A stretch of 49,976 nucleotides of DNA from Melioribacteraceae bacterium (GTDB lineage Bacteria; Bacteroidota; Ignavibacteria; Ignavibacteriales; Melioribacteraceae). Positions 8,155-17,375 of the stretch are shown one piece after another. How positions within the stretch are numbered: position 1 is the stretch's first letter; the number at the start of each line of letters is the position of its first letter. The notes under the pieces are model-generated. The model saw only the letters and a list, made by a program, of their open reading frames with translations, did no database searches and was not told where the DNA came from. Position numbers and translations under genes: made by a program. The stretch covers positions 1 to 49,976 of the forward strand of contig JALSTI010000175.1 in NCBI GenBank assembly GCA_026983795.1. The letters are read 5' to 3'.

Positions 8155-9294
8155 ATGAAAAAAATTATAATATCTGTATTAGCGCCTTTTATTTTATTAA
8201 CCACAATGGCGTTATCATGCAAAAAGGACGAAGGGACACCGGTAGAACCGGAACCAGCAACTCACGGTTCAATAAAAGGAAGCGTCGTTGAATTCGGTTC
8301 CACAAATCCTTTGGCAATGGTGAATGTTTATTCGGTTCCGCCGACAAGCTTCGTAAAAACGGACAGTTCCGGAAAATACATAATCAATACCGTTGAACCG
8401 GGGGAATATCAGGTGGTTGCCGCTAAAATAGGTTTCGATACTATTTCCGTTAATGTAAACGTTACGGCGGGAGCGGTGACGGTTGCCGATTTTATATTAG
8501 TTAATAACGGTTCGAAAGGCGGAGTACAATTCGGACAAATATCCGGCACGGTTTTTAATTCGGCATCTTTCTTACCTATCGGTAAGGTTAATTTAATTAC
8601 TTTGCCCGCTACCGGTTCAATCACTACCGATGATTCTGGTAAATTCAATTTTGGCAATGTCCCGGCAGGTCAATATAAACTTAAAGCCGAAAAAAAGGGT
8701 TACGATACAACATCGGTAACCGTAACAGTTTACGGCGGAAATACTTCCGAAGCGGATATTTACATGGACAAAAGCGACACAAGCAACTCTTTTAATACAG
8801 GAACAATAATCGGTAATGTAAAAGATTCACAATCTTTGCTGGCAATTAACGGTGCATTAGTAAGCACAAACCCGGCTACAAGCTCCGTTTTCAGTAAAAA
8901 CGACGGATCGTACAGATTCGAAAATATTGAACCGGGAAGTTATACGATACAAGTTTCCAAATCCGGTTATCAAGATGCAAGCGCACAAATAACTGTATCG
9001 GCCGGTAAAATAACACAAGCTGATTTCACATTAATATCAAAATCTGGAAGAGTAACCGGAACGGTTACCGATGCCGCAACTTTACAACCGGTTCCGGGAG
9101 TAAATATTCAAACACAACCGGCAACGGTTTCAATAACTACCGATACTTCGGGTAAATTTACATTGGAAAATATTTCTCCCGCCACTTATACAATAAAAGC
9201 AAATGTAGCCGGATATTTAACGGCATCTTTAAGTGTGGTTGTTACGGCGGGAAACGTTACGCAGGCAGATATTTCTTTAACAAAAATAAATTAA
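8155..9294 (+). CDS. lipoprotein with four carboxypeptidase-regulatory-like repeats
   Basis: This 379-residue protein has a lipoprotein signal peptide ending ALSC, with the lipidated Cys at residue 22, followed by an acidic, proline-rich linker. Four tandem domains of about 80 residues fill the rest: 38-118, 127-206, 216-296 and 298-379. Each follows the plan G-x-I/V-x-G-x-V, a variable loop, T-x-(D/S)-x-G-K/S-(Y/F), then PG-x-Y, a GY/GF segment and a closing ADF/ADI strand. This is the CarboxypepD_reg (transthyretin-like, Ig-fold) pattern common on Bacteroidota-type cell surfaces. No enzymatic domain is present, so a structural or binding role at the outer membrane is likely. It converges on the amidase gene and shares a TTAA with it at the stop codons. 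Confidence 0.85.
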   Translation: MKKIIISVLAPFILLTTMALSCKKDEGTPVEPEPATHGSIKGSVVEFGSTNPLAMVNVYSVPPTSFVKTDSSGKYIINTVEPGEYQVVAAKIGFDTISVNVNVTAGAVTVADFILVNNGSKGGVQFGQISGTVFNSASFLPIGKVNLITLPATGSITTDDSGKFNFGNVPAGQYKLKAEKKGYDTTSVTVTVYGGNTSEADIYMDKSDTSNSFNTGTIIGNVKDSQSLLAINGALVSTNPATSSVFSKNDGSYRFENIEPGSYTIQVSKSGYQDASAQITVSAGKITQADFTLISKSGRVTGTVTDAATLQPVPGVNIQTQPATVSITTDTSGKFTLENISPATYTIKANVAGYLTASLSVVVTAGNVTQADISLTKIN

Positions 9295-10169
9295 TGTTTT
9301 TCATTAACTGTTTTACTCAGCGGTTCCAAAGGCCGCGCCACCATTATTCCCGTATGATTTTTTATATTTTTAATATAATCGGAAAGTGGTACGGCAGTTA
9401 CTTGTACTTTTTTGCCAACGTTAGGCGCGTGCAAAAAGTGAATTCTACCGTCGTTTAATCTTATTGCCATTCCTGTATGTGAAATATCGAGTCCTTTTGT
9501 TCCGGCAGTAATTAGAATTATATCGCCCGTTTTAATTTTATTCTCAACTTTTTCTATCGAATCTTGCGGAATATAATAATACTTCCGTTGGTTGATATTA
9601 TCTTCAATTTTTTTCATCGAATCAACAAATCCGGGATGTACTGAAAGTTGCTTGTAATATTTTATATGAGTTGACATGAAGTCGATTTTTTTCTTATACG
9701 GAATTCCGCCAATTTCTTTGGTCACATCTTTAACAATTCCGCGTTTTGCATTATCGTAAAGCCAATCGGATGCGTAATGCAGCCTCGAAGTATAACCGTT
9801 GATTTTACCGTTCCGGTATCTAATTTTAGTAAGCTCCTTTTCAAAATTTTCGAATGAAGTTTTATCTTCCTTAACACATCGAGCTAAAGCTAAAGTCGCT
9901 TCAAAAAACGTATAGCAATCAAGTCCGCTTAAATGAATTACCAAATGTTCGTTTTCACCTTTTTCCAATGTATGAGCGGCATAATCCGTTCCCAAAAAGG
10001 TTTTACCAATTTCAACCATAACCCGGTTTATAGGCAAAGACTTTAACCTATTATTTGCCGCAAACTCAAACTTTGATTTGCAAATTTTAACATCTTGGGG
10101 TGAATAAGATACATTTTGAGCATTAACTATAAATACCGAAAGAAATAAAATTAAAATTATCTTTTTCAA
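9291..10169 (-). CDS. secreted DUF1460 N-acetylmuramoyl-L-alanine amidase-like protein
   Basis: This 292-residue protein has a signal peptide (residues 1-17, ending NAQ) and then a DUF1460 domain (PF07313), an NlpC/P60-like cysteine fold described as cutting the amide bond between muramic acid and the stem peptide. The likely nucleophile is the Cys in LDCYTFFE, near residue 84. The partner histidine is in ISHTGMAIR, in the C-terminal third. The start is TTG, overlapping the dnaB stop as TTGA, with GAGG twelve bases upstream; no in-frame ATG gives a better start. It is the last gene of a udg-dnaB-amidase unit. Its expected place of action is the periplasm, so coupling to dnaB is probably positional. 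Confidence 0.85.
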   Translation of the reverse strand: MKKIILILFLSVFIVNAQNVSYSPQDVKICKSKFEFAANNRLKSLPINRVMVEIGKTFLGTDYAAHTLEKGENEHLVIHLSGLDCYTFFEATLALARCVKEDKTSFENFEKELTKIRYRNGKINGYTSRLHYASDWLYDNAKRGIVKDVTKEIGGIPYKKKIDFMSTHIKYYKQLSVHPGFVDSMKKIEDNINQRKYYYIPQDSIEKVENKIKTGDIILITAGTKGLDISHTGMAIRLNDGRIHFLHAPNVGKKVQVTAVPLSDYIKNIKNHTGIMVARPLEPLSKTVNEKH

Positions 10170-14584: not shown

Positions 14585-16717
14585 TTAAAACGCTTCGCCA
14601 ATTCCAATTTGAATTTCCGTTGTATTCCAAAAACCGCGTGAATCTTTCAGACGCGTAAAATAACTTCTTTGGTCGTACGGATCATACATTTTAACGCCTA
14701 TATCCAATCTTATTGGCGCAAAAGTAGAGTAATACCGGAAGCCCAAACCGAAAGCCACGGCTAAAGCATCGAACCTAAAATTTTTATACTCGTTAAACGT
14801 ATTACCGTAATCGATAAACACAGCCGAACCGAATTTACCGAAAAGATGCGTTCTAACTTCCATGGAACCTTCGAAGAGAAAAAACCCTCCTGGAATAATA
14901 CCTCTTAACAAAACGCTTTCCAATTCTTCGTTGGTAGGATTTTCGGGCAATGTATTGGCATTTGTAATCGGGTTAAGCTCCGCAGTTTTCCAGCCTCTTA
15001 CCGAGTTACTTCCTCCCGCGGTAAACCTTTGATTAAGCGGTATTCCCGATTTATTTCCTTTGTAAACGCGAATATAACCGGTTTTAAATTTTATACCGAA
15101 TGCTGATTTAGAGTTATTAAACAGATGGGGGAAAAATGAGGAATTAATTAATATTTTATAATATAACGGACTATTGAAATTATATCCGCCAATTTTACTT
15201 GCCAAATAAGCAAGGGAATTTCCGTCTTCCAAAGTGATTGATAAACTGTATCCTTTAGTCGGGAATAAAAAGTCGTCGGTTTTATTTGCTCCCAAATACA
15301 TACCTAAAATTACATTTGTACTTTTACTTTTAATAGGTCCGATTATAAGGGAATCGATTTTGCTTGTGGCGAAAGAATCTATTTCCGGTTGAGTTAATAT
15401 TCTATTTAAGTATCCCGAAAAAACATTTTCTATATAAGATTTTTGGTATCTGTATTCGGCGGATTCTATTGTAAGGTAGGTTGAAAATGCCGATAAGTAA
15501 GTATATTGCGGTAATTCGAAGTTTAAGTTTAGTCTTGATCCAATCAATCTAGCATTATATTGATCTTTCTTTTTCTGAAGTGTGTAATAAGTTTCAAGCT
15601 TTGTAAAAATAGGATCGCCAAACAAAAAGGGCTGTTCAAAACTAATACGTGCATCGGCATAGCCAAATATTTTATTTTCGGTTAAAGAGGGTTTCGAAAT
15701 AAAATCGGCTATATTTTGAGCCGCCGCAGATATTCTTGTAGTAAATTTTCGCGCATCGCCTAAAAAATTTTTTTTAGTAAAACTTAGACCCAAACCAAGT
15801 TTAAATGTGTTGTCTTCGTTAATTCCGATAATTTCGGGAGAGAGTTCGTGAAGCAAGCCGACATCGGCGCTAACTTTAATGGGAACAACATTCCCAACCG
15901 TATCCCCCACCACACCGCTAACTAAAGCCGATGTAAAAAGATTGGTCCGGTAAAGACGTATTTGCGCTCTTTTTAAGTCGTATAAACTGTAATAATTACC
16001 GGGAGTCAGGTCTGCAATTTCCCGTATTAAGTCATTTGTAACAAGTTGTTTTCCTTTTCCGGTTTTATCAATAATTATTTTGCCAATTTTGTAACGTTTG
16101 CCCGTTAAAAATTTATAATTAACGGCAACTTTATTTTTCATTGTATCGATGTCCACTACCGGTGTTTTGGATTCGGCTAACATATACCCGTGATCGTGTA
16201 AAAAATTTAATATGAATGCCCTGTTTTCATCGACCAACTTGTCGGAATACTGAACATTTGTATCGATTGTTAAAGACGAATAAATCATTTTATGAAATTC
16301 GCCCGGAATTTTTTTAATACCTTGAATTTTAATTTTGTTAATAAAAGCGGGTTCTCCTTCGTTAATATAATAAGTCAGTTCGGCGGTTTTATCTTCTTTA
16401 TCCAAAATATATTTACTTTTAATACGGGTATGGAAAAATCCATTTGACATATAAAGGTTTGTAATTGCATCAAGATCAATGGGGATTAAAGTAGAATCAA
16501 AGTACACGGCGCTGTTGCCAATTGGACTAAAGCTATTGAAAAATTTAGAAATCCAACCGGGAGATTCCCTTGAAGTAATAATAAGTCGTAATTGCGACGA
16601 AGAGATATAGTTATTTCCTTCAAAGTCAATTGATTTAAGTTCGTAATTTAATTCCTGTGCAGAATAAATTTTAGTGAACAGAGTTAAAACCAGTATTGAT
16701 TTAAATAAAAACTTCAC
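14585..16717 (-). CDS. BamA/TamA family (Omp85) outer-membrane assembly protein
   Basis: This 710-residue protein has a signal peptide (residues 1-20), then POTRA-like repeats to about residue 290 (beta-alpha-alpha-beta-beta units such as KSIDFEGNNYISSSQLR). A C-terminal 16-strand barrel follows. The conserved L6 loop motif is present as RFTAGGSNSVRGW, with Arg574-Gly575-Trp576, and the chain ends in the expected hydrophobic last strand. Omp85 proteins insert beta-barrel proteins into the outer membrane. With few POTRA units it looks more like a TamA or BamA paralogue than the main BamA, which usually has five. The start is GTG. The transpeptidase-fold gene lies 31 bases upstream on the same strand. 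Confidence 0.88.
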   Translation of the reverse strand: MKFLFKSILVLTLFTKIYSAQELNYELKSIDFEGNNYISSSQLRLIITSRESPGWISKFFNSFSPIGNSAVYFDSTLIPIDLDAITNLYMSNGFFHTRIKSKYILDKEDKTAELTYYINEGEPAFINKIKIQGIKKIPGEFHKMIYSSLTIDTNVQYSDKLVDENRAFILNFLHDHGYMLAESKTPVVDIDTMKNKVAVNYKFLTGKRYKIGKIIIDKTGKGKQLVTNDLIREIADLTPGNYYSLYDLKRAQIRLYRTNLFTSALVSGVVGDTVGNVVPIKVSADVGLLHELSPEIIGINEDNTFKLGLGLSFTKKNFLGDARKFTTRISAAAQNIADFISKPSLTENKIFGYADARISFEQPFLFGDPIFTKLETYYTLQKKKDQYNARLIGSRLNLNFELPQYTYLSAFSTYLTIESAEYRYQKSYIENVFSGYLNRILTQPEIDSFATSKIDSLIIGPIKSKSTNVILGMYLGANKTDDFLFPTKGYSLSITLEDGNSLAYLASKIGGYNFNSPLYYKILINSSFFPHLFNNSKSAFGIKFKTGYIRVYKGNKSGIPLNQRFTAGGSNSVRGWKTAELNPITNANTLPENPTNEELESVLLRGIIPGGFFLFEGSMEVRTHLFGKFGSAVFIDYGNTFNEYKNFRFDALAVAFGLGFRYYSTFAPIRLDIGVKMYDPYDQRSYFTRLKDSRGFWNTTEIQIGIGEAF

Positions 16718-16748: not shown

Positions 16749-17375
16749 TTAATTATGAATTTCCACTTCGGTTCCTACCTGCGTAACCGAAAACAGTTCA
16801 TCTATGCTTTCATTACTTACGGCTATAGAACCGTCTGTCCAATTAAATACAAACGGAAGATTTTTAAAAATAAAATTATATTTCCCAATACCGTGAATTC
16901 CGATATTGGCACCTAAAGGCGTATCGCCGGGCGGACAATTACCGGTTTCGATTTCATTTTTAATTTTTAAATAATCTTTTCTTTTTATCAAGCCATTTTT
17001 TAATGCTTCGGCTGCATCTTTAATTCTTGGATAATTTAATTTCATATTTTTATAATACTTAGTATTGGTGTCTTTTTCGCAAATTTTAAATTTTCCCAAC
17101 GGTGTTACATAATCGTTTGCGGAAGTTTTGATTGAAGCGTTATTTCTTCCGAATACGGCTTTATAACTTTTAACTTTAATTTTGCCAGAATATAAAATTA
17201 AATGATAATTTTTTCTGTCAACAACCAAATGAACATTTTCCAATTTCGATATTCCTTTTTCCATCATGGATTCACGCAATGTAGCTTCACGGATATTTAA
17301 AATAATACCGTAAATAATCATTCCCGTGAAAAACACTAAAATACTAAGTACAACGTAAATTATATTTCTTAACAT
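16749..17375 (-). CDS. membrane-anchored L,D-transpeptidase-fold protein with Ser in place of catalytic Cys
   Basis: This 208-residue YkuD-domain protein has an N-terminal membrane anchor (residues 4-26) and a periplasmic domain from about residue 47. The family pieces are TPLGKFKI (91-98), GIHGIG (159-164, with the conserved His161-Gly162) and NWTDGSIAVSN (178-188). Relatives have NWT-x-GCIA(L/V)-(S/T)N, and that Cys is the nucleophile for 3-3 cross-linking or for attaching proteins to peptidoglycan. Here the position is Ser183, codon TCT at 16827-16829, one base from the Cys codon TGT. The rest of the domain looks intact. It is either an inactive or re-purposed homologue, a recent mutation, or a base error. 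It probably shares a transcript with the Omp85 gene. Confidence 0.85.
   Translation of the reverse strand: MLRNIIYVVLSILVFFTGMIIYGIILNIREATLRESMMEKGISKLENVHLVVDRKNYHLILYSGKIKVKSYKAVFGRNNASIKTSANDYVTPLGKFKICEKDTNTKYYKNMKLNYPRIKDAAEALKNGLIKRKDYLKIKNEIETGNCPPGDTPLGANIGIHGIGKYNFIFKNLPFVFNWTDGSIAVSNESIDELFSVTQVGTEVEIHN

Follow-up and report, generated by a model that had tools for sequence, protein, structure and literature searches.

Serine at the catalytic cysteine position throughout a clade of YkuD-fold proteins from the Ignavibacteria: a probable envelope pseudoenzyme

The YkuD-fold gene and its neighbors

Cysteine catalysis is what YkuD proteins are known for. The DNA analyzed here (the window, 49,976 nucleotides of contig JALSTI010000175.1 from the Melioribacteraceae assembly GCA_026983795.1) encodes a protein whose residues 49–206 match the YkuD domain PF03734 at 60.6 bits (cut-off 23.4) and which lacks the nucleophilic Cys of the [ST]xGC motif; the bases at this site read AGA on the forward strand and TCT on the reverse strand, making codon 183 a serine codon (Table 1). 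The catalytic histidine of the HG strand is present. The original prediction had placed Ser183 at the YkuD cysteine position and called His161-Gly162 intact; the ORF sequence and its alignment to relatives with cysteine bear out the first point, and both residues of the second are there. The Omp85 neighbor that it named is also real, with Pfam matches to Omp85 and POTRA.

Table 1. Features of the YkuD-fold gene and the adjacent Omp85 gene in the window
Feature	Position	Strand	Basis or remark
YkuD-fold protein, 208 aa, Ser replacing catalytic Cys	16749..17375	-	ORF, Pfam, AlphaFold2, VIA
Ser183 codon TCT, nucleophilic Cys site	16827..16829	-	sequence; Ser in clade, Cys outside
His161 codon, catalytic His	16893..16895	-	kept here; Gln/Glu/Ile in 13/97 clade members
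Clade signature LPFxFNWT(D/N)GS, residues 173-183	16827..16859	-	near-invariant across Ser clade
N-terminal hydrophobic helix, residues 2-27, predicted membrane anchor	17295..17372	-	model helix and hydropathy
Residues 118-157, two helices and loop preceding HG strand	16905..17024	-	alignment; secondary structure
Cys99, near-invariant in Ser clade, probable disulfide partner of Cys147	17079..17081	-	co-occurrence
Cys147, probable disulfide partner of Cys99	16935..16937	-	co-occurrence
Omp85-family outer-membrane protein, POTRA and barrel	14585..16717	-	Pfam; 31 bp downstream of YkuD ORF

An Omp85 gene follows on the same strand in 54 of 55 loci that carry the serine form (Ser-YkuD), in many cases with yicC and gmk further along, and none of these neighbors is found at the 13 loci of the class's Cys-type relatives. 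The linkage on which the original prediction based a possible envelope-anchoring role is conserved, but an obligate partnership is ruled out by Omp85 orthologs that persist in eight genomes without a Ser-YkuD gene (G001, G002, G003, G005, G076, G077, G213 and G273). In one further genome (G220) the two genes sit apart. The other families inspected have a conserved gene between Ser-YkuD and Omp85 for a lipoprotein of about 215 aa without Pfam matches; a search of 12 genomes of the window's own family found no copy of it. This lipoprotein carries a YYxSxxYFxGSGGGEV-like motif (L118:4596-5253; also at loci L034, L033, L049, L101 and L102), and one match to it (L251, G184:C1:3646594-3647184) was reported with one in-frame TAG. 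The window's assembly (G000) has seven PF01103 (Omp85) matches, on contigs C146, C175, C265, C198, C197 and C24. Elsewhere in the window, on the reverse strand, are an AmiA-like gene (PF07313, 183.6 bits; 9291-10169), which is another possible cell-wall enzyme, and an RlpA-like double-psi beta-barrel gene (PF03330; 21999-22487).

Distribution of the serine form

In the 3.35 Mb assembly to which the window belongs, this is the sole PF03734 protein found. There was also no PF04294 (VanW) match in that assembly, in a search whose controls worked, and no match in a PF13645 profile search, where the control genomes were likewise without any, which makes this second negative uninformative. Of the 79 genomes of the window's family, 69 have a homolog; homologs also occur in two more families of the order and, elsewhere in the class, in family f13. 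A PF03734 search of the same 79 genomes found Ser-YkuD as the single YkuD gene in 57 (two YkuD gene pieces in G072 were counted as one gene) and together with one or more further YkuD genes in 12; G002 carries only another YkuD gene. In genus g17 the serine form is accompanied by long YkuD proteins, about 630 aa in size (loci L054 = G040:C17 and L055 = G039:C122). A named collection yielded 22 homolog contigs, the closest at 71% identity, with titles reading Ignavibacteria, Ignavibacteriales, Ignavibacteriaceae or Ignavibacterium (19), Bacteroidetes bacterium (2) and Bacterium BMS3Abin04 (1). Forty pattern matches were considered as possible viral copies, and none was confirmed. Within the searches made, the Ser clade is restricted to the class Ignavibacteria.

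A single replacement of cysteine by serine

Among the 103 distinct sequences first aligned, all 97 of the group that includes the window protein have serine at position 183, and the other six, which are outside relatives, have cysteine. A wider search of the phylum and the fetched loci gave the same picture, with Ser183 aligned to cysteine in every outside-clade relative whose site could be aligned. The serine homologs do form a clade, as the original prediction had asked, and the finding that it said would count against it, close relatives that all have cysteine, is the reverse of what is seen, as the close relatives all have serine. With columns 161 and 183 left out of the tree, the serine sequences make up one side of one branch (support 100/99; 200 of 200 bootstrap trees), and a quick tree gives the same single Cys/Ser split. 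Since every outside relative and the superfamily have cysteine, cysteine is taken as ancestral, and the trees indicate one replacement by serine at the base of the clade, retained ever since.

Codons for this serine are TCA (48), TCT (20), TCG (16), TCC (10), AGT (2) and AGC (1); the use of all six indicates that the residue is old and strongly held. For all 17 closest pairs (those with dS between 0.1 and 1), dN/dS lies between 0.03 and 0.24 with a median of 0.10, and one His-less pair gives 0.13, values which point to purifying selection on the gene in close pairs.

Repeated loss of the catalytic histidine

The window protein keeps both Ser183 and His161, as do 84 of the 97 clade members; the other 13 have glutamine (9), glutamate (3) or isoleucine (1) in place of the histidine. 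Parsimony counts nine changes, of which at least five are forced by supported branches. None of the 39 Cys rows of the tree has lost the histidine, and a branch-length-weighted test of nine losses confined to the serine part gives p ∼0.016 on the quick tree, a moderate and not overwhelming value. The NWT.GS signature is kept in the His-less members, and no new histidine that might compensate was found in their sequences.

Fold, pocket and extra segment

An AlphaFold2 model made from a 91-sequence alignment contains a confident YkuD domain (pLDDT 93.5). VIA-align 2 superimposes 110 residues of it on Bacillus subtilis YkuD (1y7m) with Z 17.7 and rmsd 2.5; the Z scores for Csd6 and LdtMt2 are 16.5 and about 15.5. 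Single-sequence phmmer against the PDB returned chance matches only, so that profile and fold searches were required; the best sequence-profile match there is DpaA/YafK (8ikr, E 3e-11), and by profile the solved structures nearest to the window protein are those of DpaA, Bd1075, Csd6 and Pgp2. By sequence and fold the protein is thus a member of the YkuD superfamily that fails the defining feature of its enzymes, the cysteine. The profile-nearest proteins are hydrolases and not classical cross-linkers, and so "L,D-transpeptidase" is probably the wrong label for the ancestry of the clade as well. The model has a helix at residues 2–27, with a hydropathy peak of 2.65 at residues 8–26; as a predicted inner-membrane anchor it would place the YkuD domain on the periplasmic side.

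The most conserved region of the Ser clade is the rim of the old pocket. Charged residues that the Cys relatives have are lost in the clade. Glu86 is found in 12 of 12 Cys rows from the class and in 1 of 91 Ser clade sequences, and Lys/Arg90 in 31 of 39 Cys rows and none of 91; Glu93 is also lost, and Gly164 and Leu173-Pro174-Phe175 are newly fixed. Counted along the printed alignment, the Glu86 site corresponds to Glu107 of Pgp2, a residue linked to the D-Ala bound in Csd6 (PMC8038945). Loss of Glu93 (in TPEG) was dropped as proof of inactivity because the active Csd6 and Pgp2 have isoleucine or valine there.

About 24 residues within the segment 118–157 are missing from the class's Cys relatives. 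Cys99 and a cysteine in the stretch 140–156 are both present in 89 clade members and both absent from four, and another four have Cys99 only; none has the segment cysteine only. This co-occurrence suggests that Cys99 and Cys147 probably form a disulfide. Neither can be a stand-in nucleophile for the whole clade, as they co-occur in the manner of a disulfide and four members lack both.

Comparison with known YkuD-superfamily proteins

The YkuD-type L,D-transpeptidases (1y7m, LdtMt2) share the fold with the window protein, and their His-Gly strand and G-[CS] turn occupy equivalent positions, but the window protein is without their Cys nucleophile, their SHGC motif and the arginine of GCIR (here GSIAV). 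The L,D-carboxypeptidases Csd6, Pgp2 and Bd1075 rank among the top matches to the window protein by fold and by profile, and Csd6 and Pgp2 have a GCIA-type motif that likewise lacks the arginine; they differ in having cysteine where the clade has serine, in the Pgp2 Glu107 equivalent, which is gone in 90 of 91 clade sequences, and, for Csd6 and Pgp2, in a C-terminal NTF2 domain, whereas the window protein ends with its YkuD domain. DpaA also lacks the conserved arginine and needs its Cys143 (PMC8263019), where the window protein has serine; the profile alignment sets its "gsiAv" on DpaA "GCYAM". Serine-dependent beta-lactam turnover has been reported for Lpg1514, a YafK-family protein of Legionella pneumophila (PMC13400389), and there too serine chemistry was argued for a YkuD-superfamily scaffold; in that protein, however, the serine concerned, Ser132, is not at the Cys site and Cys174 is still present, whereas here serine replaces the cysteine itself.

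The same swap in the same fold exists in the laboratory-made LdtMt2 C354S (8pxy) and Enterococcus faecium Ldt C442S (2hkl), whereas that of the Ser clade is natural, old and fixed. LdtMt2 C354S formed no product (PMC11410929); LdtJ C390S was inactive, and a non-enzymatic role for LdtJ was suggested (PMC12548408); and the C174S and H157A variants of Pgp2 were both inactive (PMC8038945). A literature search with most subscription journals outside its scope found no report of a Ser clade of this kind, and none that joined YkuD with "pseudoenzyme" or "inactive homolog".

A maintained pseudoenzyme as the favored reading

The original prediction had offered two functions, a serine nucleophile with changed chemistry or a peptidoglycan-binding pseudoenzyme. 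The evidence makes the former less likely, also for the 84 members that keep their histidine, and supports a pseudoenzyme, which may or may not bind peptidoglycan: the serine is fixed, the histidine is repeatedly lost and YkuD enzymes engineered from Cys to Ser have no activity (PMC11410929, PMC12548408, PMC8038945). A pseudoenzyme is expected to have lost catalytic residues in a gene under purifying selection, and the Cys and His losses together with the dN/dS values fit this description. The best-supported reading, to which we assign a probability of roughly 0.68, is that of an ancient, maintained YkuD-superfamily pseudoenzyme whose role in the envelope would be to bind some ligand or partner without processing it; a non-catalytic binder or scaffold is favored because of the repeated His loss and the inactive mutants. 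Cysteine was replaced once, at the base of the clade, and the histidine has been lost several times since. Presumably held at the inner membrane by its first helix and located in the periplasm, the YkuD domain would no longer form an acyl-enzyme. Its retained pocket (Lys69, Thr91-Pro92-x-Gly94, Gly162-x-Gly164 and LPFxFNWTxGS) may be a binding site with Ser183 as a hydrogen-bonding residue of the floor, and the probable disulfide may hold the extra segment. Whatever occupies the pocket, conceivably the stem of a peptidoglycan or the end of a protein, could be bound and left unprocessed, so that the YkuD protein might act as a tether, sensor or competitor in envelope upkeep. Retained substrate binding cannot be assumed, since Pgp2 C174S and H157A bound peptidoglycan poorly (PMC8038945).

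Two features weigh against the pseudoenzyme reading: most members, the window protein included, keep the Ser and His pair, and it is serine itself and not any small residue that is fixed, a constraint not necessarily expected of a spent active site. Both would suit a working hydrolase or transferase with Ser183 as nucleophile, His161 as base and a changed response to inhibitors, and Lpg1514 lends such chemistry some precedent in spite of its different serine and retained cysteine (PMC13400389). The nine parsimony losses of the histidine while the serine stays, the inactivation of three studied YkuD enzymes by the same exchange (PMC11410929, PMC12548408, PMC8038945) and the loss of the Glu86 and Lys/Arg90 of the Cys relatives make this unlikely. 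No better odds are given to a natural serine-nucleophile lineage in which members with both Ser and His use Ser183 to attack an amide or ester in peptidoglycan or protein and the His-less members are secondary losses of activity; were it true, this branch of the superfamily would respond differently to carbapenems. Improbable to a further degree is reuse of the fold in an envelope complex, in a structural or regulatory capacity, with for example Omp85 or the lipoprotein as partner and the old pocket free of ligand. The same-strand Omp85 linkage, the conserved lipoprotein between the two genes in other families and newly fixed surface such as LPF and Asn172 would fit such a part, but Omp85 orthologs persist without the YkuD gene, the genes are apart in G220, and conservation is strongest at the pocket rim. 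A sequencing or assembly error, or a gene decaying in one strain, for which only the 312-contig state of the window's assembly could speak, is ruled out by serine in all 97 distinct clade homologs from independent genomes and records, intact ORFs and low dN/dS.

Implications for annotation and for the YkuD fold

Pfam-based annotation labels the window protein an L,D-transpeptidase. In the 57 family genomes where it is the only PF03734 gene, an annotator would credit the organism with 3-3 cross-linking or stem trimming that Ser-YkuD probably does not carry out. A natural, clade-wide Cys-to-Ser exchange, in which some members have also lost the histidine, is in addition a ready set for studying what the YkuD fold does without catalysis.
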